NCBI GenBank assembly: GCA_020723305.1
Contig: DYJC01000007.1
Location: forward strand, 1 to 64,000
Source: Desulfosudis oleivorans
GTDB lineage: Bacteria > Desulfobacterota > Desulfobacteria > Desulfobacterales > SURF-7
Reading direction: 5' to 3'
Length of the DNA: 64,000 bases
The notes under the pieces are model-generated. The model saw only the letters and a list, made by a program, of their open reading frames with translations. It was not told where the DNA came from and did not search any database. Below are positions 52,014-63,754 of the stretch, one piece after another. Each line of letters begins with the position of its first letter. Position 1 is the stretch's first letter. A program made the translations under genes and the position numbers.

Positions 52014-53920
52014 TTAAACTTACATTTCGCATCACCAGAAAATATTTTTTGAATATTTATCCAGATTTTCATAAAAATCTATTATGTCTCCTTAAACCGC
52101 CACCAGTTATCCGGAAGTTGTGAGTAAACCGAATCAGGGATTTCCAGTAATCTGATGACTTGTTCATGCAAAGCACTAATCCCTTTCACCAATGATTGTA
52201 CGATCAGCCTATCGTGGATTATTTCAGAGTAGTGCACGTTTCGGTAAAAGTATCGGATGTTGTTCCAGGTCGGCTTTCTTGAATTCATCCCCTGCGGCAA
52301 GATAGCCAACTTTTCTATATTTTCCCTTGCCATATTCATGCGTATTTTCCGTTCGATAAGCGACACGATCATTAATGCTACAAAATACAGGAAAAGCATG
52401 GCTTCAATGCGCTTCTCCTTTTTTAGAAAAACAGGGGTGACTTCAAGAACTGTCTTTTTAGTGTACATTCGCTTCTCAAGGAATGGTTGGCTTTTATATT
52501 TTCTCAAAATCTCACTGGCGGGAAGTCCTGTATTCGTAATCAACGGGAAGATTCCATCTGTTTTTGACGCCTCAGCAAGGGCTTCTTCATTTAATTCCCA
52601 CTGAAGACTGTGGGTAAATTCCCATTTGTTCTTGTAGACACTCTTTGATAGTGAAGGCCTGCCGGGCGATATCTTCACCTTAACCTGCTTGCGTTCGGTT
52701 ACGATCTTAACGCGGACGAAATCTTTAACCTCCTTGCAAATGCCGGTTACAGACTTCTTGATCTCTTTCCTGGTTTTTAGATGATAGGCATTCAGTTTCG
52801 GTGATAGCTCTTCTAATTTTGCAATCGCTTTCTCTATTTTCCCCCGTCTTCTGCCTTCATCGTCTTCCTGTTTTGCGCTGCTGTGAACAAAAATGATTCG
52901 GAAGCCATCTTTCGTACGCTCGGATTCATATGTTCTGTAGATGTTCATCTCGCCTTTTCTACGTGAGCTTTCAATTTTAAATGCCTCTTTCCATGTTACA
53001 TCGTTTCCTTTCAGATGGTTTAAAAAGCGTTTGACCTCCTTTCGGTCCTTGGGGACGATTGTAATAAAAAAGCCGCCATTGCCTGAAATATGGATTAAAT
53101 TCTCATGGCTGCATAACTTGCAATCAGCCACGTAAATAAAAACTTCTTTTTCCAATAAAGTCCGCAGGACGTTCCAGTTCGGTATATGCGTGACGTCATC
53201 GCAGGTATTGCCGTCAAAGAGTTGGTAGCTCAGCGGCACATGACCATCGGCTGTGATATTCAAACCAAACACAATCTGCTTGCAGTCAGGCCGGAAATCC
53301 TTATTGTGGCCGTGTTTGAGCTTGACCGCTTCCGAATCGGGAGTATCGTACTTGCCAATGAACGTCACCGTTGTGCTGTCATTATGGATTTCATCAGTAA
53401 GCAGTTTATGGACAGCAATAGCGTTACCGGATACCTCGGTCAGTAACGAATGGCGGTCTGACCGGAAAAGGGCCGAAAGGGCTTTTGCAAGCCGATCATC
53501 ATTAAAAAGATTCGTCGCTACCGGATCTGTAACCATCCCATCGGAATATCTGGACAACCACTCTTGAACCTTGTACAGCGGCTTGTTATCGCATATAATA
53601 TTCGCTATTATTATGCATAGACTTTCGGCATGGTCCGCAAGACTTCTGGCATTTGCCGGAACATATTTCGTAAAAAGATTGAACAGATCAAGTTCATTCA
53701 TGAAATGTTTGACCATCGGCAACACATCGACTTGTCTGAACCGTGCTTCAAATTGCTCCATAGAACCCTCCTGTTTCGTTTTTAAGGAGGGTTATAAAAC
53801 TTTTTAATGTAAAAGTCTAGATTTTTTATTGCGTTGTTATATCAGCATCTTATCGGCAATCCCGGGACTCTGTTCCAAAATTGTTGAAATCTTTTTTTGA
53901 GGTGCGAAATGTAAGCTTAA
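52014..53920 (-). mobile_element. IS1634-type insertion sequence
   Basis: The element is about 1.9 kb, bounded by 18-bp imperfect terminal inverted repeats: TTAAACTTACATTTCGCA (52014-52031) and TGCGAAATGTAAGCTTAA (53903-53920), with one mismatch. It carries a single full-length transposase gene on the minus strand. No clear target-site duplication is seen. The right end abuts a remnant of a Y1-type transposase reading frame, so the element probably inserted into an older transposon. Confidence 0.75.
52082..53761 (-). CDS. IS1634-family (IS4 superfamily) transposase
   Basis: The product is 559 residues. An N-terminal DUF4277-like helical region ('VLPMVKHFMNELDLFNLFTKYVP') is followed by an RNase H-like DDE core: 'IHNDSTTVTFIG' has the first Asp, 'FIYVADCKLCSHEN' the second, and 'ALMIVSLIERKIRMNM' the Glu with the Y/R-x2-R-type follow-up. 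A large beta insertion lies between the second Asp and the Glu, as in IS4-type enzymes. It appears complete and is probably functional. The ATG has an AGGAGG-type site upstream. It is the sole gene of the element. Confidence 0.88.
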   Translation of the reverse strand: MEQFEARFRQVDVLPMVKHFMNELDLFNLFTKYVPANARSLADHAESLCIIIANIICDNKPLYKVQEWLSRYSDGMVTDPVATNLFNDDRLAKALSALFRSDRHSLLTEVSGNAIAVHKLLTDEIHNDSTTVTFIGKYDTPDSEAVKLKHGHNKDFRPDCKQIVFGLNITADGHVPLSYQLFDGNTCDDVTHIPNWNVLRTLLEKEVFIYVADCKLCSHENLIHISGNGGFFITIVPKDRKEVKRFLNHLKGNDVTWKEAFKIESSRRKGEMNIYRTYESERTKDGFRIIFVHSSAKQEDDEGRRRGKIEKAIAKLEELSPKLNAYHLKTRKEIKKSVTGICKEVKDFVRVKIVTERKQVKVKISPGRPSLSKSVYKNKWEFTHSLQWELNEEALAEASKTDGIFPLITNTGLPASEILRKYKSQPFLEKRMYTKKTVLEVTPVFLKKEKRIEAMLFLYFVALMIVSLIERKIRMNMARENIEKLAILPQGMNSRKPTWNNIRYFYRNVHYSEIIHDRLIVQSLVKGISALHEQVIRLLEIPDSVYSQLPDNWWRFKET

Positions 53921-54274: not shown

Positions 54275-54547
54275 ATGAATCAGATAATAATAAATCAAAA
54301 AGCTTGGAAACAACTAAAGAAGCTTCCGATTCATATTGTAAGAAAATTTCAGATATAGGTTGAGCAAGTTGAAATGCTTGGAATTGAAGAGATTAGAAAA
54401 ATATCAGGCTATCATGACGAGCCATTACAAGCGGATAGGAAAGGCCTGAGATCAATCAGACTGTCAAAATCATATAGAGCATTTTATATTGAATATCAAA
54501 ACGATATCATCATTGAAGTTATAGAGGTGAACAAACATGAATATTAA
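54275..54547 (+). pseudogene. RelE/HigB-type toxin with in-frame amber codon
   Basis: A 91-codon frame runs from ATG 54275 to TAA 54545-54547 with one internal stop, TAG at codon 28 (54356-54358). On both sides the sequence is a normal RelE/HigB-type mRNA-interferase: 'AWKQLKKLPIHIVRKFQI' before, and 'GIEEIRKISGYHDEPL', 'RKGLRSIRLSKSYRAFYI' and 'VIEVNKHEY' after. The family often has Trp at this point, so a single TGG-to-TAG change explains it. Without suppression only a 27-residue fragment is made. The antitoxin start overlaps the end by 11 bp. Whether readthrough occurs is unknown. Confidence 0.75.
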
Positions 54548-54839
54548 AAATAAATATGGCTCAAAAGAACTAAAAAGCGATTATGGGCCGCTTACGTTTG
54601 GCAATGCTCTTGAATCTCACAGAAAATGCAAAGAAATGAATCAAAAAGAGTTTGCCTTAAAGCTAGGAATATCCGCACAGAGCCTTTGCGATATTGAAAA
54701 GAGCCGAAGGATTCCTTCGCCGAGCCGGGCAGCAAAGATTGCCAAGCAGATCGGAGAGCCTGAGATATTCTGGATTCAACTTGCATTTCAAGACATGTTG
54801 CGGAAAGAACATCTTAGCTTTACGGTTTCAGTTGCATAG
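54537..54839 (+). CDS. XRE-family antitoxin (HigA-like)
   Basis: The product is 100 residues with a helix-turn-helix domain at about 20-80 ('FGNALESHRKCKEMNQKEFALKLGISAQSLCDIEKSRRIPSPSRAAKIAKQIG'). It overlaps the 3' end of the toxin frame by 11 bp, the toxin-first order of HigBA. It should bind the toxin and repress the promoter at 54241. It is intact although the toxin carries a stop, so it may persist as a free repressor. Confidence 0.85.
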   Translation: MNIKNKYGSKELKSDYGPLTFGNALESHRKCKEMNQKEFALKLGISAQSLCDIEKSRRIPSPSRAAKIAKQIGEPEIFWIQLAFQDMLRKEHLSFTVSVA

Positions 54840-54886: not shown

Positions 54887-55110
54887 ATACCCAAACCTGG
54901 ACGACCGGGGCAGATGAACCGAGCCGGAAGAATCCTGATTCGAGTTCCGCTTTTTTCTTGACTTCCATTCTATTGCCTACTAAATGTTACCTTTCTTCCG
55001 ATGCTCAGATAGATGATGTCGAGAATCCGGTTGAAAGACATATTTGATGAATAAACATTTGGAGAAAATTGGATTATGATCTAACTGTTTGATGTTCAAT
55101 ACATAATTTT

Positions 55111-55275
55111 TCAGATGCTCATTTGAGCGTAAAAGGGAATCCGGTTAAAGTCCGGAACGGGCCCGCCGCTGTAATCGGGGACCAACGCCGCAATCAAGTC
55201 ACTGTTTTCTGTTTCATCGAATGGGAAGGCGCGGTTAGTAGAAAGATCCGAGAGTCAGAAGACCTGTCTGAACAA
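55111..55275 (+). promoter_or_regulatory. Cobalamin riboswitch
   Basis: The leader of the cobalamin uptake operon shows the core consensus: AAAAGGGAATCCGGT, then AAAGTCCGGAACGGGCCCGC, CGCTGTAATCGGGG and, after a variable arm, AGTCAGAAGACCTGTCTG (the B12-box partner). It lies 115 bp before the btuB ATG and just upstream of an intrinsic terminator. Binding of adenosylcobalamin or another corrinoid is expected to favour termination. Confidence 0.93.
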
Positions 55276-55335
55276 AAATTGCATTCTCCGTGGACAAGAG
55301 GGTGCGCATACAGATTCACTGGAAAAAAAAGGGAT

Positions 55336-55390: not shown

Positions 55391-57430
55391 ATGCAACCAA
55401 AAATTCAATTCAACTTGGCCGCGGCATTTTTCGCCATCATTCTGATTCTTTGTTTTGCCGGAACCGCTTTGTCAAAAGAACAGAAAAAGGCAGTACAGCT
55501 GGATACGGTTGTTGTAACCGCTGACAAAATCAATGAAGATTATCAGACCGGGGATGTTGATACGGAACAGGCAACTGCTCACCATACCATTATCCAACGT
55601 GACCATTTTGAAGGAAAGATGGAAACCCTGGCCGAGGTGATTGAAAAAGAAGCGGGTGTCCAGATCCGTCAGACCGGCGGGCTCGGAAGCTTCTCCACGG
55701 TTTCACTTAGGGGGTCCAACAGCAATCAGGTCATGATCTATCTGGATGGAATCCTTTTGAACGACGCTGCCGGAGGCGGCGTGGACCTGAGCAATATCTC
55801 CCTGTCTGATGTCGAATCCATTGAAATCTACCGGGGAACAACCCCGATCAACTTCAACAACGCTTCCATCGGCGGGGTGATCAACATCAAAACCCTGAAA
55901 TCCAATGACGGTCTTCACGGACATCTGAAAGCCGGTTATGGGTCATTTGATTCCAGAGAGATTTCCGGCCTTGCCACCTATAAACCCGGGGAGTGGGATA
56001 CCCTGTTGCTGACCAATCACCTGGCCAGTAAAAATGATTATGATATCAATAACGACAATGGAACTCCGATGAATCCGGATGATGATCGAACGGAAAAAAG
56101 AAATAACGCAGATTTCAGCCAGTACAATATCCTGGCTAAGTTCGGTTATGATTTTACCGGAAGCAACCGGATCGATATTGTCAACCAGGGTTTTCTAAAA
56201 GATCAAAATCTGCCGGTATGGAACAACAGCAGTACAGCCAATGCCACACTTGACACAAAACGGAATATCTCTTCGGTCAAATTCACAGCCGATGACATCG
56301 GGGCCCTCCATCTCAACACATCCACCAAGTTCTCCTATCTATACAAAAATGAAATCTATGAGGATCAACACAGTACAATCGGACTTGGCAATCAGCATCT
56401 GAAATATATCACGAAGCGTTACGGCGGTGAGTCCTATATCGAATGGTTGACCGATATCAACACCGCTATTCTTACAATCGACCTGTACCAGGAAGTATAC
56501 GAACCCGAAGACCTTCTCTCGGGAATCGATCAGAACAGCAGTTCCAGAAATATGTATGGAATGGGGCTTCAGGACACCCTGGTTCTGTTCAAGGACACCC
56601 TGATTGTCACACCGGCCATCCGGTACGCCTTTTTTGATGATGAATTAAAAAGCGGAACCGACCTTTATGGCAAACCTCAGGAAGGAGTCACCCAGCAGGA
56701 AGATTACTGGAGTCCGCAGATTGGAGTCAAAATCCAGCCTTTGAACGGGTTGTCCGTAAAAAGCAATCTCAACAAATATTTTCGGACACCTTCCTTCTTT
56801 GAGCTGTTCGGGGATCGGGGATTCTTTCTGGGAAATTCCGAGTTGAAGCCGGAAACCGGTATCAACTTTGATGCCGGCATGGAAGTGAATCAAACCTTCC
56901 ATCATTTTCTGTTCAACGGGTTTTCAACGGAAATCGTTTATTTTCAAAACAATATCGATGATCTGATCACAAGGGTTTATGATGCAAGAGGCATCGGCAA
57001 ATCCGTGAACATCTCCAGCGCCGTTATCCAGGGGGTTGAGGTCAAGGGCAACGTCAAGCTGTATGAGCATTTCCAGTTGATTGGAAATGCTGTCATGCAG
57101 GATGCGGAAAATCAAAGCCGGATTGAAGGATTTGACGGGAAGAAACTTCCAGGACTGTTCCGGAACCAATACACAGGAAGAGTTGAAACCAGCTTGCGGA
57201 ACTGGAAACTGTTTGTTGAATATGTTGTCAACAAACAGATGTATTATGACACAGCCAATCTGCTCAAGGCCAAAGACCAGAAATATCTGAATACCGGTGT
57301 CTCCTGGCTGGTTCAATCTTTTCTATTCAGTGTTGAAGCGAAAAATATCACGGACGAACAGTATGAAGATTTCAATGGGTACCCCATGCCCGGAGTATCC
57401 TGTTTTGGAAGTGTAAAATATACATTTTGA
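55391..57430 (+). CDS. btuB: TonB-dependent cobalamin receptor (BtuB-like)
   Basis: The product is 679 residues. A signal peptide (about 1-28) is followed by a TonB box-like 'LDTVVVTADK' and a plug domain (about 55-165; 'IEKEAGVQIRQTGGLGSFSTVSLRGSNSNQVMIYLDGILLNDAAGG', 'VESIEIYRGTTPINF'), then a 22-strand barrel ending in Phe. It moves a ligand across the outer membrane using TonB-ExbB-ExbD energy. Vitamin B12 or related corrinoids are inferred from the riboswitch and neighbouring BtuF/CbiZ/BtuCD genes. AGGA lies 8 bp upstream of the ATG. Confidence 0.93.
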   Translation: MQPKIQFNLAAAFFAIILILCFAGTALSKEQKKAVQLDTVVVTADKINEDYQTGDVDTEQATAHHTIIQRDHFEGKMETLAEVIEKEAGVQIRQTGGLGSFSTVSLRGSNSNQVMIYLDGILLNDAAGGGVDLSNISLSDVESIEIYRGTTPINFNNASIGGVINIKTLKSNDGLHGHLKAGYGSFDSREISGLATYKPGEWDTLLLTNHLASKNDYDINNDNGTPMNPDDDRTEKRNNADFSQYNILAKFGYDFTGSNRIDIVNQGFLKDQNLPVWNNSSTANATLDTKRNISSVKFTADDIGALHLNTSTKFSYLYKNEIYEDQHSTIGLGNQHLKYITKRYGGESYIEWLTDINTAILTIDLYQEVYEPEDLLSGIDQNSSSRNMYGMGLQDTLVLFKDTLIVTPAIRYAFFDDELKSGTDLYGKPQEGVTQQEDYWSPQIGVKIQPLNGLSVKSNLNKYFRTPSFFELFGDRGFFLGNSELKPETGINFDAGMEVNQTFHHFLFNGFSTEIVYFQNNIDDLITRVYDARGIGKSVNISSAVIQGVEVKGNVKLYEHFQLIGNAVMQDAENQSRIEGFDGKKLPGLFRNQYTGRVETSLRNWKLFVEYVVNKQMYYDTANLLKAKDQKYLNTGVSWLVQSFLFSVEAKNITDEQYEDFNGYPMPGVSCFGSVKYTF

Positions 57431-57477: not shown

Positions 57478-58854
57478 ATGATGAAAACCAATTGGAAGGC
57501 TATGTCCGAAACGATGGCAGCAACTCTTTTATTTTTATCGATCTCAGTGCTGTTACTGATCGCTTCCTCTTTACCTGCTCAAGCAGATACCAGTCAAACC
57601 GCAGTGGTTGTATCCGCAGCAGGCGATTATTCAAGTGGTGCTCATTCCGTGGTTTCTGTTGAACCGGTCGGAGGGCCGAGAGCGATCACACAGGATCTGG
57701 TTCCATCCGGCTCCGACATGACGGTTGCAGCCTATGGGGAATACTTTTACCGGATGGAAAGAAGCGGCGCAAACAACATCACCAAATTTCATGTGGATCA
57801 GCCGACTGCTGCGGTCTGGCAATACTCGACGGAAGAAGATGAAACCGGAAGCAATCCGCATGATCTTATCTTTGTAAATGAATCAAAAGCCTATCTGCTC
57901 CGGTTTGGATCATCAACCTTGTGGATTGTCAATCCGAGCGCGACCAGCGAGGCGGACTTCAAAACCGGTGAAATTGATCTGAGCGCATATGCAGACGAAG
58001 ATGGAAACCCGGAGATGCACAGCGGTGTGATCGTTGGGGACTTTCTGTATGTTACACTGCAACGGATCGATTTTTCCGGCGGCTGGGGGAATTATGTCTA
58101 CCATACACCCTGGGTGGCTGTATTCAAGACCTCCGATGATACAGAGGTGAACACCGGAAAAGGAGATGGAACCCGAAAAGGTATCCCGCTTCCCATGGAA
58201 AATCCGGGAGCCATTCAGTATCTGGCATCCAACCATACTGTTTATGTTCAGGGTGTCGGACAATACACAAACCAATACACCGGTGGAATTGCAACCATCA
58301 GCCCTACCTCTTACGAATCAACCCTGATTCTGGATGACGGGGATGCAACAGATCATCCGTATGGCGCAATCTCCGGAATGGCCATTGTTTCTCCAACCAA
58401 GGGCTACTTTATCGGCTATGCAGCCTGGGGAGACAATACCCTGTACACCTTTAATCCTTCTGATCCGGATCCGGCTGGAACGGTTGTATCCGGCCTTGAG
58501 AACCTGAGCATCGGCGGCATGGAAACCGGAGTTTATACGGACCAGAACAGCATGTTGTGGATTTGTGCATCTGCATATGATGCAGAAACATGGTCGCTGA
58601 CCGATCCCAAAATTATCATTTTAAACACATCGACAGATGAAATTGATGAAACCATCAACACCAACCTGACGCCATTGCGGGTTGTGTTTGCCGGAGAAAC
58701 AGAATTAACCCCTGCGGAGTCCGGATCCGGCGATGATGACAGCACCTGTTTTATCCAGACTGCCTCAAAAGGGAAATACGCAAACAGCCTTTGGACCCTG
58801 TTCTCTTTATCGGCGGTCTTTGCTTTTGTTGGGGTGTTTCATTTAAAAAAGTAA
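57478..58854 (+). CDS. Secreted beta-propeller-like protein with CFI box and C-terminal anchor
   Basis: The product is 458 residues, second gene of the cobalamin operon. A signal peptide (about 1-36, ending 'PAQAD') is followed by repeated blades such as 'NPHDLIFVNESKAYLLRFGSSTLWIVNPSA', 'GVIVGDFLYVTLQRIDF' and 'GTVVSGLENLSIGGMETGVY', a YncE/BtuG-like beta-propeller pattern. The end has Cys424-Phe-Ile-Gln-Thr-Ala, then one hydrophobic helix ('LWTLFSLSAVFAFVGVF') and a basic His-Leu-Lys-Lys. This is a C-terminal sorting or anchoring signal, similar to CFI-box-CTERM tails. By position it may be a surface corrinoid-binding partner of BtuB, by analogy with Bacteroides BtuG; this is inference. Confidence 0.7.
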   Translation: MMKTNWKAMSETMAATLLFLSISVLLLIASSLPAQADTSQTAVVVSAAGDYSSGAHSVVSVEPVGGPRAITQDLVPSGSDMTVAAYGEYFYRMERSGANNITKFHVDQPTAAVWQYSTEEDETGSNPHDLIFVNESKAYLLRFGSSTLWIVNPSATSEADFKTGEIDLSAYADEDGNPEMHSGVIVGDFLYVTLQRIDFSGGWGNYVYHTPWVAVFKTSDDTEVNTGKGDGTRKGIPLPMENPGAIQYLASNHTVYVQGVGQYTNQYTGGIATISPTSYESTLILDDGDATDHPYGAISGMAIVSPTKGYFIGYAAWGDNTLYTFNPSDPDPAGTVVSGLENLSIGGMETGVYTDQNSMLWICASAYDAETWSLTDPKIIILNTSTDEIDETINTNLTPLRVVFAGETELTPAESGSGDDDSTCFIQTASKGKYANSLWTLFSLSAVFAFVGVFHLKK

Positions 58855-59082: not shown

Positions 59083-61095
59083 ATGAAAAAAAATATAGTA
59101 AACATCCTCTCATGCATCCTGATCTGCTGGATCTGTTTTTCAACTTCTGCTTTCTCTCTTCCGTTGACAATCACGGATGCAAACGGAAAACCAATAATCA
59201 TTCAAAAGGTGCCTGTCCGGGTCGTCTGTCTGGTTCCATCAGCTACTGAAACGCTTTTCAGAATCGGTGCTGAAAAGGCCATTGCCGGCTTAACTTACCA
59301 TGACACCTATCCTCCAGGGGCTTCCTTGAAACCAATTGTAGGCGGTTTTTTTGAGCCTTCGATCAGTGCGATTGAAATGATCAAACCGGACATGATCATT
59401 CTTTCCGATATACACTCAGAAATTAAAAAACGATTCTCTGGTTCAGACTGCCTGCTGGTTGAAATGAAAACAACTTCCCTGTCCGACAGCTTTTCCGATA
59501 TCCTGCTGCTCGGAAAGATCTTTCAGCGGGAAACCCAGGCAAAGGAGATTATAACGCAGATTCAGCAGGAGCTTGAACTGATCAAAAGAAAGATCGCAAC
59601 CATTCCAGAAGAGAAAAGAAAACGGGTGATCCGTCTCATGGGACGCGACAAGGTGATGACCCCTGGAACCGATTCCTTTCAGAATGAAATGATCCGGGCA
59701 GCCGGAGGAATTACTCATCCCTTCAATAAAAAAGGGGATATCATTGAAGTCACCAAAGAGGAGTGGCTCCGGTTCAATCCCCAGGTGATCTATGGATGCG
59801 GCGGAGATGAAAAAACAGCCGAATCTTTTTTCAGCAAGCCCGGCTGGAAAGCGGTGGAGGCTGTAAAAAACCGGAATATTTTTTACTTTCCATGCGACCT
59901 TACATGCCGGGCAGCGACCCATACGGGTTATTTTGTCTCCTGGCTTGCTGCAGATATTTACGGGAAAGAATTTTCAAATAAAAGTCCCCTTGTTGAAAAA
60001 GATAAAATCATAACTTCAAGAGCCATTCAGATTGACCTGGATTACCTCAAAGACATCCGGATTCTCTACAGCCGGATTTATGATTTTACCCATAAAACTT
60101 TGGTCATCGATTTTACGAAACCTCTTTCCGTTGTATCCACGCTGGAAGGAGAGCGATCCCATATACAAACCGTGGGGAACCATTTCTCCCCTCCCCAGTA
60201 TTGGGCCATGGGCCATGGCAACACACTTGATGGTCTCCGGAATCAGATATATGCCGTCATTGGCCAGGATGAAAAAATATCAAGCTTTCTCTTCACCGGG
60301 GCGGACATGGACAATCTTTCCATACAACAGGAAACATTCAGGGAGATGCGGGTGCATACGCTGATTACCGCCGGCGTGGAAAGCAATGCCATGCGCATGT
60401 CCAAAGATGAGGGCCTCTATTATGAACCCGGTACCATCAACATTATCATCCTGACCAATATGAAACTGACTTCCAGTGCCATGACCCGTGCCATCATTAC
60501 GGCAACCGAAGCCAAAACCGCAGCTTTGTCCGATATGGACATCCGGAGCAGTTACGGTTCAGGGGCTTATCAGGCAACCGGTACCGGAACAGACAATATC
60601 CTGGTTGTTGAGGGTTCCGGAGTGCGATTGGACAATAGCGGCGGCCATACCAAACTGGGTGAACTGATTGCCCGTGCCGTATACAAAGGCGTTCAGGAAG
60701 CGGTCGGCAAGCAGAACCGGATGACCACATCACGGAATATCTTTCAGCGGCTCGAAGAACGTGATATAACCGTTGCCGGTCTGATTGGAACAAAAAAGTG
60801 CGACTGCGGTCGTGACCCAAACGTTCTTTCCGGTGCGATTGAATCCCTGCTTCTTGATCCGCAATATGCAGGATTTATTGAATCCGCACTGGCGATAAAT
60901 GATGAATACAACAAAGGACTGGTAAAGGATCTGACATCCTTCAGTCTGTGGGGTAAAAACATTGCGGAACAGATTGCAGGCCGGGAGATTCCTAAAATGA
61001 AAGATATCGTGGTGACAGATACCCTGCCACCGGTATTGAAAATTGCATTCAATTCGCTGCTGAATGGAGTTTATTACCAGGAAAAAACAGAATAA
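59083..61095 (+). CDS. BtuF-like binding protein fused to CbiZ
   Basis: The product is 670 residues. A signal peptide (about 1-25) leads into a periplasmic binding-protein domain (about 30-300) of the BtuF/FhuD type ('VVCLVPSATETLFRIGAEKAIAGLTYHDTYP', 'IEMIKPDMIILSD', 'GWKAVEAVKNRNIFYFPCD'). From about 325 onward it is CbiZ: 'STLEGERSHIQTVGNHFSPP', 'FTGADMDNLSIQQETFREMRVHTLITAGVESNAMRMSKDEGLYYEPGTINII', 'TEAKTAALSDMDIRSSYGSGAYQATGTGTDNILVVEG' and 'FQRLEER'. CbiZ is an adenosylcobinamide amidohydrolase that removes the nucleotide loop of pseudo-B12. The last about 100 residues lack a clear match. The signal peptide implies the amidohydrolase acts in the periplasm. Confidence 0.9.
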   Translation: MKKNIVNILSCILICWICFSTSAFSLPLTITDANGKPIIIQKVPVRVVCLVPSATETLFRIGAEKAIAGLTYHDTYPPGASLKPIVGGFFEPSISAIEMIKPDMIILSDIHSEIKKRFSGSDCLLVEMKTTSLSDSFSDILLLGKIFQRETQAKEIITQIQQELELIKRKIATIPEEKRKRVIRLMGRDKVMTPGTDSFQNEMIRAAGGITHPFNKKGDIIEVTKEEWLRFNPQVIYGCGGDEKTAESFFSKPGWKAVEAVKNRNIFYFPCDLTCRAATHTGYFVSWLAADIYGKEFSNKSPLVEKDKIITSRAIQIDLDYLKDIRILYSRIYDFTHKTLVIDFTKPLSVVSTLEGERSHIQTVGNHFSPPQYWAMGHGNTLDGLRNQIYAVIGQDEKISSFLFTGADMDNLSIQQETFREMRVHTLITAGVESNAMRMSKDEGLYYEPGTINIIILTNMKLTSSAMTRAIITATEAKTAALSDMDIRSSYGSGAYQATGTGTDNILVVEGSGVRLDNSGGHTKLGELIARAVYKGVQEAVGKQNRMTTSRNIFQRLEERDITVAGLIGTKKCDCGRDPNVLSGAIESLLLDPQYAGFIESALAINDEYNKGLVKDLTSFSLWGKNIAEQIAGREIPKMKDIVVTDTLPPVLKIAFNSLLNGVYYQEKTE

Positions 61096-61950
61096 ATGAA
61101 ACCGATCCTTCAATCTATCGTTGCTTTTGCTTTTCTATTGCCCGTCCTTGCCTGGGGAGAATCCCTTTCCTATCCACAAAGGGTTGTCTCTCTGGGGCCT
61201 ATCATTACAGAGATGATCTATCTGCTCAAGGCAGATAAACAGCTTATTGCCGATACAAGCTATTGTATTGTGCCGGAGGATGCCAAAAACAAGGAAAAAA
61301 TCGGTTCGATGATTGAGATGAATGTTGAAAAAATTGTCGGCATGCGACCTGATCTGGTGCTGGCCAGTCCGCTTTCCAAAAAAAAGCAGCTTTCCATGCT
61401 GGAAAATTTAGGTGTGCGTGTAAAGCGCATGGAAAATCCAAAAACCTTTTCAGAAATGTGTCAACTGACCATGACCATGGGTGAAATTCTGGGAAAGGTG
61501 GAAAACGCCCGGCTTGTGATCGATGATGCAAAAAAAAATGTGGATGCAATCCTGTCTGTTACACGGAACCTACCCAAAAAAAGGGTGTTTATGCAGATCG
61601 GAGTCAAACCCCTTCACACCGCAAGCCGGGACACATTTCTCAATGAATATATTGAATATGCCGGAGGGATAAATATTGCCTCCCTGGAAAAAACCGGTGT
61701 ATACAGCCGGGAAAAGGTATTAAAGGACAATCCGGATGTGATTTTCATTACAACCATGGGATCTGCTGAAACCCTCGGAGAACAGGAAAAGGAAACATGG
61801 ATGCGGTATCCATCCCTGAAAGCCGCAAGAGATAAAGAGATCCATATCCTGGATTCCTATCTGGTATGCAGCCCTACTGTTGATAAATTTGCGACGACCG
61901 TGAAGAAAATCGCACAAATACTGCATCCTGAAATCGACGAACTGAAATGA
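61096..61950 (+). CDS. btuF: ABC transporter substrate-binding protein BtuF-like
   Basis: The product is 284 residues with a signal peptide (about 1-20, ending 'LAWGES'). It has the two-lobed FepB/BtuF pattern with a rigid linking helix: 'RVVSLGPIITEMIYLLKADKQLIADTSY', 'NVEKIVGMRPDLVLASPL' and 'YPSLKAARDKEIHILDSYLVCSP'. Its ATG starts at the base after the fusion gene's stop, and its stop overlaps the btuC start by 4 bp. It is the second binding protein in this operon, so it may deliver corrinoids to BtuCD while the fusion processes them. Confidence 0.88.
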   Translation: MKPILQSIVAFAFLLPVLAWGESLSYPQRVVSLGPIITEMIYLLKADKQLIADTSYCIVPEDAKNKEKIGSMIEMNVEKIVGMRPDLVLASPLSKKKQLSMLENLGVRVKRMENPKTFSEMCQLTMTMGEILGKVENARLVIDDAKKNVDAILSVTRNLPKKRVFMQIGVKPLHTASRDTFLNEYIEYAGGINIASLEKTGVYSREKVLKDNPDVIFITTMGSAETLGEQEKETWMRYPSLKAARDKEIHILDSYLVCSPTVDKFATTVKKIAQILHPEIDELK

Positions 61951-62957
61951 AAAACAGAAAAGCAAAAAACTGGTTTCTGATGCTGCTGATCCTGAGCCTC
62001 TTTCTGCTCATGGCCTGCATCCTTGCTGTCTGTACCGGCAGTGCCGGAATTCCTGTTCAGAAGATACCGGATATCCTGATCAACGGGGAAGGCACCGTGG
62101 AACACAGCATTCTTTTCAGTATCCGGCTGCCGAGGCTCTTGCTGGCCCTGTCCATCGGAGGGGCATTGAGCCTGGCCGGCGTTCTCCTCCAGGGAATGTT
62201 CCGGAATCCTCTGGTTGAACCCTATACACTCGGTATCTCCGGCGGAGCCAGCCTGGGAGTATGCCTGAATATCATATTCAAATGGTATATAACACTGGGT
62301 GTTATTGCATACCCGCTTTCCGGATTTCTGGGAGCACTGCTGGTGATCGCAATTGTTTACAGCATCAGCATCAAAAAAGGAGATCTCAAAACCAACAACA
62401 TGCTGCTCATCGGTGTGATGATCAGTTTTGTTTCATCATCGGTAGTCATGCTTCTCATGGCCGTCTCCCACAGCGAAGACCTTCACAGTATCATTTTCTG
62501 GATCATGGGGTCTCTGGATGAACCCAACATGATTCTGGTCAGAATATCCATTATCGTGTCCATTGCAGGACTGATCCTCTCCTACTTTTTCTGTCTGGAT
62601 CTGAATGCGCTTGCCCTGGGAGAGGAGGAGGCGATTCACCTTGGAATTCAAACAGAACGCACCAAACGCTTTCTGTTTATCATCGCCTCAATCCTGACCG
62701 GAATGAGCGTGTCCGTAGCCGGTATTATTATGTTTGTTGGATTGATTGTCCCCCACTTCATGCGGATGACCGCGGGCCCGGATCATCGGATTCTCCTGAT
62801 CAGTTCATTCATATCCGGGGCAGCATTCCTGACGGTTTGCGATGTGATTTCCCGTACCATTGTTGCCCCCCTTGAACTTCCCGTGGGCGTCATTACCGGT
62901 ATTATCGGCGGAGTCATCTTCATCTATGTTCTCAGCCGGAAGCAGGTCTCACTATGA
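61947..62957 (+). CDS. btuC: Cobalamin ABC transporter permease BtuC-like
   Basis: The product is 336 residues, FecCD family, with about ten membrane helices. 'SIRLPRLLLALSIGGALSLAGVLLQGMFRNPLVEPYTLGISGGASLG' and 'MFVGLIVPHFMRMTAGPDHRILL' are strong signatures, and 'ALGEEEAIHLGIQTERTK' contains the coupling helix. It overlaps both btuF and btuD by 4 bp, so translation is coupled. Specificity for corrinoids is inferred from the riboswitch and neighbours. Confidence 0.92.
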   Translation: MKNRKAKNWFLMLLILSLFLLMACILAVCTGSAGIPVQKIPDILINGEGTVEHSILFSIRLPRLLLALSIGGALSLAGVLLQGMFRNPLVEPYTLGISGGASLGVCLNIIFKWYITLGVIAYPLSGFLGALLVIAIVYSISIKKGDLKTNNMLLIGVMISFVSSSVVMLLMAVSHSEDLHSIIFWIMGSLDEPNMILVRISIIVSIAGLILSYFFCLDLNALALGEEEAIHLGIQTERTKRFLFIIASILTGMSVSVAGIIMFVGLIVPHFMRMTAGPDHRILLISSFISGAAFLTVCDVISRTIVAPLELPVGVITGIIGGVIFIYVLSRKQVSL

Positions 62958-63754
62958 CGGAAGCAATCCTTGAAATAGACCACCTTTCCTGCGGGTATGG
63001 CACCAAAACAATTATTCATGATGTCAGTCTGAAAGTGGTTGCCGGTGAGATCATCGGCATTATCGGTTCCAATGGTTCCGGTAAAACCACGCTGCTCAAA
63101 TCCATTACCAATATTGTCAGGCCTGAAAAAGGGAAAATCCTGTTTCAGGGACGGACGATTCCATCGATTCCCCGGAATGAGCTTGCCAGAAAAATGGCGG
63201 TTGTCGGTCAGACTGTCGAACCGGCCATGATGACCGTTCAGGAGTATATCCTACTCGGCAGGCTGCCCTATTTTAAAAGATATCAGTTTATGGAAACCAA
63301 AAAAGATATACTCCTGGCGGAACGATACATGGCTCTGACCGATACCGATAAAGTAAAAGATCAATTGATGAGTCAAATCAGCGGCGGCGAGAGACAACTG
63401 GCTTCCATTGCCCGTGCCCTTGTCCAGGAGCCGACACTTCTTCTCCTGGATGAGCCGACTTCCCATCTGGATATCACCCATCAGGCTCAGATCCTGGGTC
63501 TGATTCAACGGTTGAATCAGGAGCTTGGGCTTACGGTATTGATGGTGGTTCATGATCTCAATCTTGCCGGCGAGTATTCCAACCGGCTGGTTCTTCTGAA
63601 CAAAAAAAATGGCCATATTTACCAGATAGGAACACCGGAAGAGGTGTTGACGGAAAAATCAATTCAGGATGTCTATGGTACTCCGGTTGTCATTGAAAAA
63701 AATCCCCGTTCGGGAAAGCCATGTATCTTTCTTGCAACCCAAAACACAATATGA
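62954..63754 (+). CDS. btuD: Cobalamin ABC transporter ATP-binding protein BtuD-like
   Basis: The product is 266 residues, complete. Walker A is Gly-Ser-Asn-Gly-Ser-Gly-Lys-Thr-Thr at 38-46, the signature is 'ISGGERQLASIARAL', Walker B is 'LLLLDEPTSHLD', and the H-loop His is in 'VMVVHDLNLAGEYSN'. It is of the FecE/BtuD class and powers the BtuC permease. It overlaps btuC by 4 bp and is followed after 9 bp by an ExbB-type gene. Confidence 0.94.
   Translation: MTEAILEIDHLSCGYGTKTIIHDVSLKVVAGEIIGIIGSNGSGKTTLLKSITNIVRPEKGKILFQGRTIPSIPRNELARKMAVVGQTVEPAMMTVQEYILLGRLPYFKRYQFMETKKDILLAERYMALTDTDKVKDQLMSQISGGERQLASIARALVQEPTLLLLDEPTSHLDITHQAQILGLIQRLNQELGLTVLMVVHDLNLAGEYSNRLVLLNKKNGHIYQIGTPEEVLTEKSIQDVYGTPVVIEKNPRSGKPCIFLATQNTI

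Follow-up and report, generated by a model that had tools for sequence, protein, structure and literature searches.

Introduction

The closest described system is BtuG, a surface lipoprotein of Bacteroides with a DUF5074 domain (PF16819), which has very high affinity for corrinoids and acts as a lid in complex with BtuB. For BtuG2, the accessible text of one study proposes that a charge of −18 attracts the ligand and describes hydrogen bonds to the corrin from blades 1–4 (PMC10404256). A survey of 313 gut genomes reported, in its available portion, no BtuG homologue outside Bacteroidetes and posed as a question why only Bacteroidetes added BtuG (PMC6143338, 2018), and BtuG or capped receptors are held to be confined to Bacteroidetes in the available parts of three papers (PMC6143338, 2018; PMC10404256, 2023; PMC12751083, 2025). 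In the BtuG literature that we searched, which, preprints and most subscription journals aside, was accessible in part, we found no report of the family described below, and the BtuG papers found concerned, by title, gut bacteria. A second system, XusB, is described in the accessible text of its report as a xenosiderophore-binding lipoprotein with a DUF4374 domain (PMC13142918). With regard to anchoring, the MYXO-CTERM tag combines a C-terminal Cys motif, a hydrophobic segment and a basic end and, according to the available part of the source, leads to surface display (PMC11980579).

Here we analyze a gene within the window, by which we mean the whole stretch of 64,000 nucleotides under study. 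A sequence-only reading had described its product as a secreted, propeller-like protein encoded directly after btuB in a non-Bacteroidetes host, with a C-terminal Cys-Phe-Ile (CFI) box, and had interpreted it as possibly BtuG-like, the C-terminal anchor suggesting an independent solution to the same task. The observation was confirmed by our analysis and the interpretation was partly supported. We consider it likely that the protein is secreted, probably held at the surface, and captures corrinoid for the receptor encoded beside it; it would bind corrinoid, be displayed and act as a lid in the manner of BtuG.

Results

The propeller gene stands second in an operon headed by a cobalamin riboswitch, in which all genes lie on the same strand:

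55096-55285, + strand: cobalamin riboswitch aptamer (RF00174; 105 bits, gathering score 31.5)
55391-57430, + strand: TonB-dependent receptor, BtuB-like by context (PF00593 and PF07715 over cut-off)
57478-58854, + strand: BtuG-like secreted propeller gene, 458 aa (fold prediction and dN/dS)
59083-61095, + strand: secreted BtuF-like domain fused to CbiZ, adenosylcobinamide amidohydrolase (PF01497 at 47-270 and PF01955 at 344-537, both over cut-off)
61096-61950, + strand: BtuF-like binding protein (PF01497 over cut-off; BtuF model best, below cut-off)
61947-62957, + strand: BtuC-like permease (top NCBIfam models are BtuC, below cut-off)
62954-63754, + strand: ABC ATPase, BtuD-like by context (top model heme ABC ATPase, below cut-off; BtuD scores lower)

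The propeller ORF is a real gene, as dN/dS values of 0.13, 0.16 and 0.14 against loci L004, L005 and L006, respectively, reveal purifying selection, and AGGGAG lies directly 5′ of its ATG. Its start 47 bases past the end of the receptor ORF bears out the placement directly after a TonB receptor, while the name BtuB comes mainly from context, because the best NCBIfam model for this receptor, TIGR01779 (TonB-B12), scores 165.4 bits, far below its equivalog cut-off of 599.7, and the TonB-hemin model scores nearly as much (155.6 bits). The BtuF-, BtuC- and BtuD-like proteins also fall below the B12 equivalog cut-offs, so the B12 reading of the operon rests on the riboswitch, one of three cobalamin riboswitches in the home genome, and on the CbiZ domain (178 bits, cut-off 27). 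Cobalamin riboswitches allow an operon to be made when cellular cobalamin is low, and CbiZ implies remodelling of corrinoids bearing foreign lower ligands. ExbB, ExbD and TonB genes follow the ATPase just past the window end. At L006 the gene order is identical through the ATPase, and ExbB-, ExbD- and TonB-like ORFs follow there too (these by eye). Taken together, a riboswitch operon in which a TonB receptor is joined by CbiZ and an ABC system, and then by ExbB-ExbD-TonB, argues for corrinoid capture, and the adjacent receptor and riboswitch support the BtuG-like reading of the propeller.

CbiZ is elsewhere cytoplasmic. By eye, the BtuF-like-CbiZ fusion bears a signal peptide in the window and at two further loci (L006, 9305-11332; L038, 6399-7991), and given this signal peptide the corrinoid amidohydrolase would sit in the periplasm. 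The home genome (5.40 Mb in 47 contigs, 97.9% complete) yielded no CbiC match, and the organism is thus probably dependent on scavenged corrinoid. The nearest named relatives of the propeller gene occur in MAGs labelled Desulfobacterium sp., Desulfocicer vacuolatum, Desulfobacteraceae and Deltaproteobacteria, which places the host, a relative of sulfate reducers, outside Bacteroidota, as had been supposed. Upstream of the riboswitch are a transposase-like ORF of 559 aa (52082-53761) and a helix-turn-helix-like ORF of 100 aa (54537-54839), both recognized by eye. On contig C2 of the home genome, at 7373-9854 of L098, a cobalamin riboswitch lies near a ThiC-family gene and a methyltransferase-like gene; the former scores over the cut-offs of the ThiC models and below that of BzaB, and these genes possibly serve lower-ligand synthesis.

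Within the propeller gene we distinguish the following parts:

57478-57585, + strand: signal peptide, about residues 1-36 (translation, by eye)
57589-58707, + strand: beta-propeller, residues 38-410 as folded (AlphaFold2 and PDB ranking)
58726-58764, + strand: CFI-box sorting motif, residues 417-429, with Cys 424 (NCBIfam NF041763, 18.0 bits)
58786-58851, + strand: C-terminal hydrophobic segment (437-456) and KK (translation, by eye)

An acidic linker is also visible in the translation. The 458-aa protein had no Pfam match at E ≤ 1, DUF5074 and DUF4374 included, and phmmer against the PDB gave nothing below E = 0.6. With AlphaFold2, using residues 38-410 and an alignment with five near relatives, the best model is a beta-propeller (mean pLDDT 75.6, pTM 0.83), and the other four models range in pLDDT from 71.2 to 59.4. 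Compared with the PDB by Foldseek, ranks 1-15 (chains) are all BtuG (E 3.3e-12 to 6.5e-10), and in VIA-align the top 11 entries are all BtuG, with Z of 28.9-30.4 and an rmsd of 2.9-3.0 over 308-314 residues. Next come an archaeal YVTN propeller (Z 26.8), 6-phosphogluconolactonase (26.5), XusB (26.4, rmsd 3.6 over 334 residues), BtuK1 (25.6) and YncE (24.8), such that BtuG lies about 2 Z over other propellers against this predicted model. An earlier model that included the C-terminal tail was poorer (pLDDT 65.6) and again ranked BtuG first. The window protein is thus predicted to be a seven-bladed-type beta-propeller with a BtuG-like shape, and the top ranks of BtuG argue for a BtuG-like role. 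The signal peptide, read by eye, and the predicted propeller both agree with the sequence-only reading, its comparison with YncE holding at the level of fold.

The net charge of the window propeller is −32, next to −18 for BtuG and +3 for YncE, which is weak evidence. Of the 26 positions that are invariant or nearly so, the 12 polar ones all fall within residues 80-242, which is suggestive only. Read at that strength, both features would fit BtuG-like capture.

Sequence identity to BtuG is low, at 10-16% in structural alignments. A profile of 39 family members searched against the PDB finds BtuG first (8puj 2.6e-5, 8okv 3.3e-5, 8p97 4e-5), closely followed by designed Pizza6 propellers (6e-5) and then YncE (0.004). 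The family HMM scores two Bacteroidales lipoproteins (L087 and L095) at 80.6 and 68.5 bits, BtuG of B. finegoldii at 22.3, the DUF5074-type protein of L079 at 22.1, E. coli YncE at 19.9 and a plain YVTN protein at 10.7, and 1,200 shuffles reach at most 6.7 bits. Since L092 and L094 encode identical BtuG proteins, the two count as a single BtuG reference. DUF5074, which scores BtuG itself at 73.6 bits, appears at E ≤ 0.1 in 8 of the 39 members, with a best value of 1.6e-6. The missing DUF5074 match of the window protein, the similar scores of BtuG, YncE and L079 and the higher scores of the Bacteroidales lipoproteins speak against placing the protein in BtuG by sequence, and we counted them against the capture-partner reading. 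By sequence, the family belongs among the BtuG/XusB/YncE-type propellers and outside BtuG, and its likeness to BtuG may stem from common descent or from convergence. We set aside a quick tree as a guide to orthology (43 rows: 39 family members and 4 references), where the BtuG branch is 4.35 changes per column long and fork support is 31 or less, making the position of BtuG meaningless.

DUF5074 was likewise rejected as a marker. It was matched in 10 of 198 genomes of the host phylum, and one of the 10 loci is a family member (L083). At the other nine (L077-L082 and L084-L086) neither a window-type receptor nor a cobalamin riboswitch was found in stretches of 1.9-3.4 kb. These nine bare loci, together with the BtuG-like profile score of L079, show that DUF5074 and a weak profile score are both unspecific.

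Of 395 sampled genomes of the host phylum, 34 have the family (E ≤ 0.001), spread over 17 taxonomic families by our own count; a family profile search found it in 38, the four additional genomes being weak (E 5e-5 to 4e-4). The 42 members considered here comprise the window, four loci from a search for relatives and 37 of the 40 rows of the phylum search, leaving out the duplicate row of the window, the second half of a split gene and a second, distant match in G071. Both L062 and L074 are included in the count, and a single gene is probably split between them. The 39-member alignment omits the partial L041, L052 and L074.

A TonB receptor adjoins the family gene in 34 of the 42 members (by eye), these and all family counts including related genomes, which are not independent. 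Four of the eight without one are at contig edges (L041, L046, L048, L074) and four are not (L065 twice, L068, L072). For 28 members, the 8 kb upstream contain a cobalamin riboswitch on the same strand as the gene, at a median distance of 2.2 kb. Of the remaining 14, eight are near contig edges with less than 2.3 kb of upstream sequence, and six are riboswitch-free despite at least 2.5 kb (L039, L069, L070 with 2.5 kb seen, L071, L072 and L073). The BtuG locus of B. finegoldii served as a positive control. There, a cobalamin riboswitch is followed by a DUF4465 gene, BtuG, receptor, binding protein, permease and ATPase, and this matching neighbourhood argues for a BtuG-like role of the window protein.

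This recurrent company also bears on whether the window protein might be a bystander, that is, a generic YVTN-type propeller such as an adhesin or envelope protein residing by chance in a B12 operon. Propellers occur widely, and in sequence the signal is no stronger for BtuG than for others of the fold; however, receptor and riboswitch recur with the family across the 34 genomes and 17 taxonomic families, and both are missing from the 1.9-3.4 kb covered at each of the nine DUF5074 loci outside it, which makes a chance resident extremely improbable.

We counted the six riboswitch-free members against the capture-partner reading. L069, L070, L071 and L073 form one branch (SH-aLRT 96) with an adjoining receptor and no cobalamin riboswitch at gathering score, and this branch may have another ligand. 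tRNA-Sec genes occur in the stretches of these four loci. The window protein could assist its receptor in the same general manner but with a siderophore, as XusB does, or with another metal complex. Beyond this branch, the shared fold of XusB and the two Bacteroidales lipoproteins, one of them beside an NRPS-like gene, that well outscore BtuG by profile speak for such a ligand. Against it stand the cobalamin riboswitch and CbiZ of the window operon, the riboswitch upstream of two-thirds of the members and the lead of BtuG over XusB by at least 2.5 Z, and we regard another ligand as very unlikely for the window protein.

Among plasmid records, the window protein has a single match, in a Phocaeicola lipoprotein locus without a cobalamin riboswitch. 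L087 (103-9008) and L095 (3179-6837) are Bacteroidales plasmid-labelled records that carry a TonB receptor and a propeller lipoprotein without a Pfam or NCBIfam match. A match of a relative on a Gemmatirosa plasmid was discarded as a plain propeller with no receptor recognized among the listed ORFs. A link to auxotrophy was also rejected: CbiC is present in 16 of the 34 family genomes (by eye) versus 198 of all 395, so that the family is no commoner where CbiC is missing, and this CbiC-independent occurrence also counts against a capture partner.

The C-terminal end of the window protein matches the NCBIfam model NF041763, ‘CFI-box putative sorting motif’, over residues 417-429 of 458 (18.0 bits, cut-off 15.9). 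Together with the hydrophobic stretch and KK, this corroborates the Cys-Phe-Ile box, hydrophobic helix and basic end that had been read from the letters, and neither eye nor script found an N-terminal lipobox, so the tag is indeed C-terminal. CFI motifs are present in 10 of the 42 members and N-terminal lipoboxes in eight (L055, L056, L057, L058, L059, L060, L063 and L064), a count made by eye as the script pattern also takes the doubtful L045 and L066 and a different Cys in L056-L058. No member has both by eye reading, and some have neither. L042-type members are extended at the N-terminus and stop at the propeller (DUF5719 below cut-off), and L069 has a dockerin-like N-terminus (20.2 bits, cut-off 22.9). 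The NCBIfam model ‘lipo-invert’, matched in 5 of 39 members, was dismissed as a C-terminal anchor since in the three proteins inspected it fell on N-terminal lipoboxes and below cut-off. The propeller is thus conserved while its tether varies between a C-terminal CFI box, an N-terminal lipobox or neither. Either tether would hold the protein at a membrane, which supports a capture partner, while the tetherless members count against it, as do the CFI-tagged L006, L007, L045 and L047, which end 6-11 residues past the Cys without a hydrophobic tail.

In the home genome the CFI model has 15 matches, two of them over cut-off and the window protein strongest. We inspected six further matches in long frames. 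Each closes with a CFI or CFV box, followed by a few residues in four of them and by a longer tail in L122 and L130, and the box would appear to be a genome-wide C-terminal Cys tag of putative processing. Long frames ending in such a box were noted at L120, L121, L122, L125, L130, L132 and L133, often without a hydrophobic tail. The genome encodes a type II secretin (526 bits, cut-off 351), and by analogy to MYXO-CTERM the CFI tag might serve to attach a lipid and to display the protein at the surface via type II secretion.

Alternatively, the protein might be a periplasmic corrinoid-binding propeller that buffers between receptor and BtuF while held at the inner membrane by its C-terminal helix, for the helix and KK could be an uncut inner-membrane anchor. 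E. coli K-12 offers a precedent in yncE, which neighbours the receptor gene pqqU and whose product shares the fold and has a profile score near that of BtuG. This is countered, not decisively, by relatives whose propeller has an N-terminal lipobox but lacks the C-terminal helix, or that stop soon past the CFI box, and by the secretin, which a surface route could use. On balance we consider a periplasmic location unlikely.

Discussion

For the surface-held capture partner that we favor, we propose the following course. When cobalamin is scarce, the riboswitch would permit expression of the operon; the signal peptide would export the propeller, and the C-terminal CFI tag, possibly modified at Cys 424, would anchor it at the envelope, probably at the outer surface. 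The central cavity of the propeller would then bind corrinoid and hand it to the receptor, import through which would be powered by TonB-ExbBD, and the BtuF-like proteins and the BtuCD-like transporter would move it onward, with the CbiZ domain trimming it for remodelling. We infer that the family works like BtuG without being a demonstrated BtuG, which suggests that BtuG-style B12 capture is not confined to Bacteroides.

The idea of an independent solution is not supported in the form proposed. Eight of the 42 members carry, by eye, a BtuG-type N-terminal lipobox, which indicates a variable tether on a constant propeller, and the profile reaches BtuG, if weakly (E = 2.6e-5; 22.3 bits). A broader proposal, which we advance tentatively and think somewhat less probable than its opposite, is that receptor-lid B12 uptake may extend more widely among Gram-negative bacteria, as a strategy that joins a single kind of propeller to interchangeable surface tethers, either an N-terminal lipid or a C-terminal CFI Cys; the lid in the window would then hinge from its tail, the opposite end to BtuG.

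The presence in another phylum of a family that adjoins receptors, is mostly linked to riboswitches and includes a BtuG-shaped member calls the confinement to Bacteroidetes into question and opens the matter to testing in environmental anaerobes, for which corrinoid exchange is important. The natural variety of tethers lends itself to testing whether a lid mechanism depends on the end from which it hinges, and also offers a handle on the role of the CFI box.

Comparison with known systems places these features in context. The CFI tag resembles the MYXO-CTERM tag in its C-terminal Cys motif, hydrophobic segment and basic end, as far as the available text describes the latter (PMC11980579), but differs in the motif itself, in the early stop of four CFI-tagged relatives and in the putative status of CFI-box processing. 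E. coli YncE shares the fold and a gene position beside a receptor gene, but has no C-terminal tag, a positive charge and another context. The Bacteroidales lipoproteins of L087 and L095 are the nearest references by family profile and each adjoins a TonB receptor, but neither has a cobalamin riboswitch at gathering score, and the NRPS-like gene, seen by eye, lies upstream in L087. XusB is a propeller partner of a TonB receptor with a similar structure, but its ligand is a siderophore, it ranks below BtuG, and DUF4374 is not among the Pfam matches (E ≤ 0.1) of the 39 family members. BtuG differs in its DUF5074 match, its low identity and its phylum, and in its N-terminal lipobox as opposed to the C-terminal CFI of the window protein; in common with BtuG, the window protein is acidic and has a predicted propeller with BtuG first in the PDB, and its gene adjoins a TonB receptor in a cobalamin-riboswitch locus.
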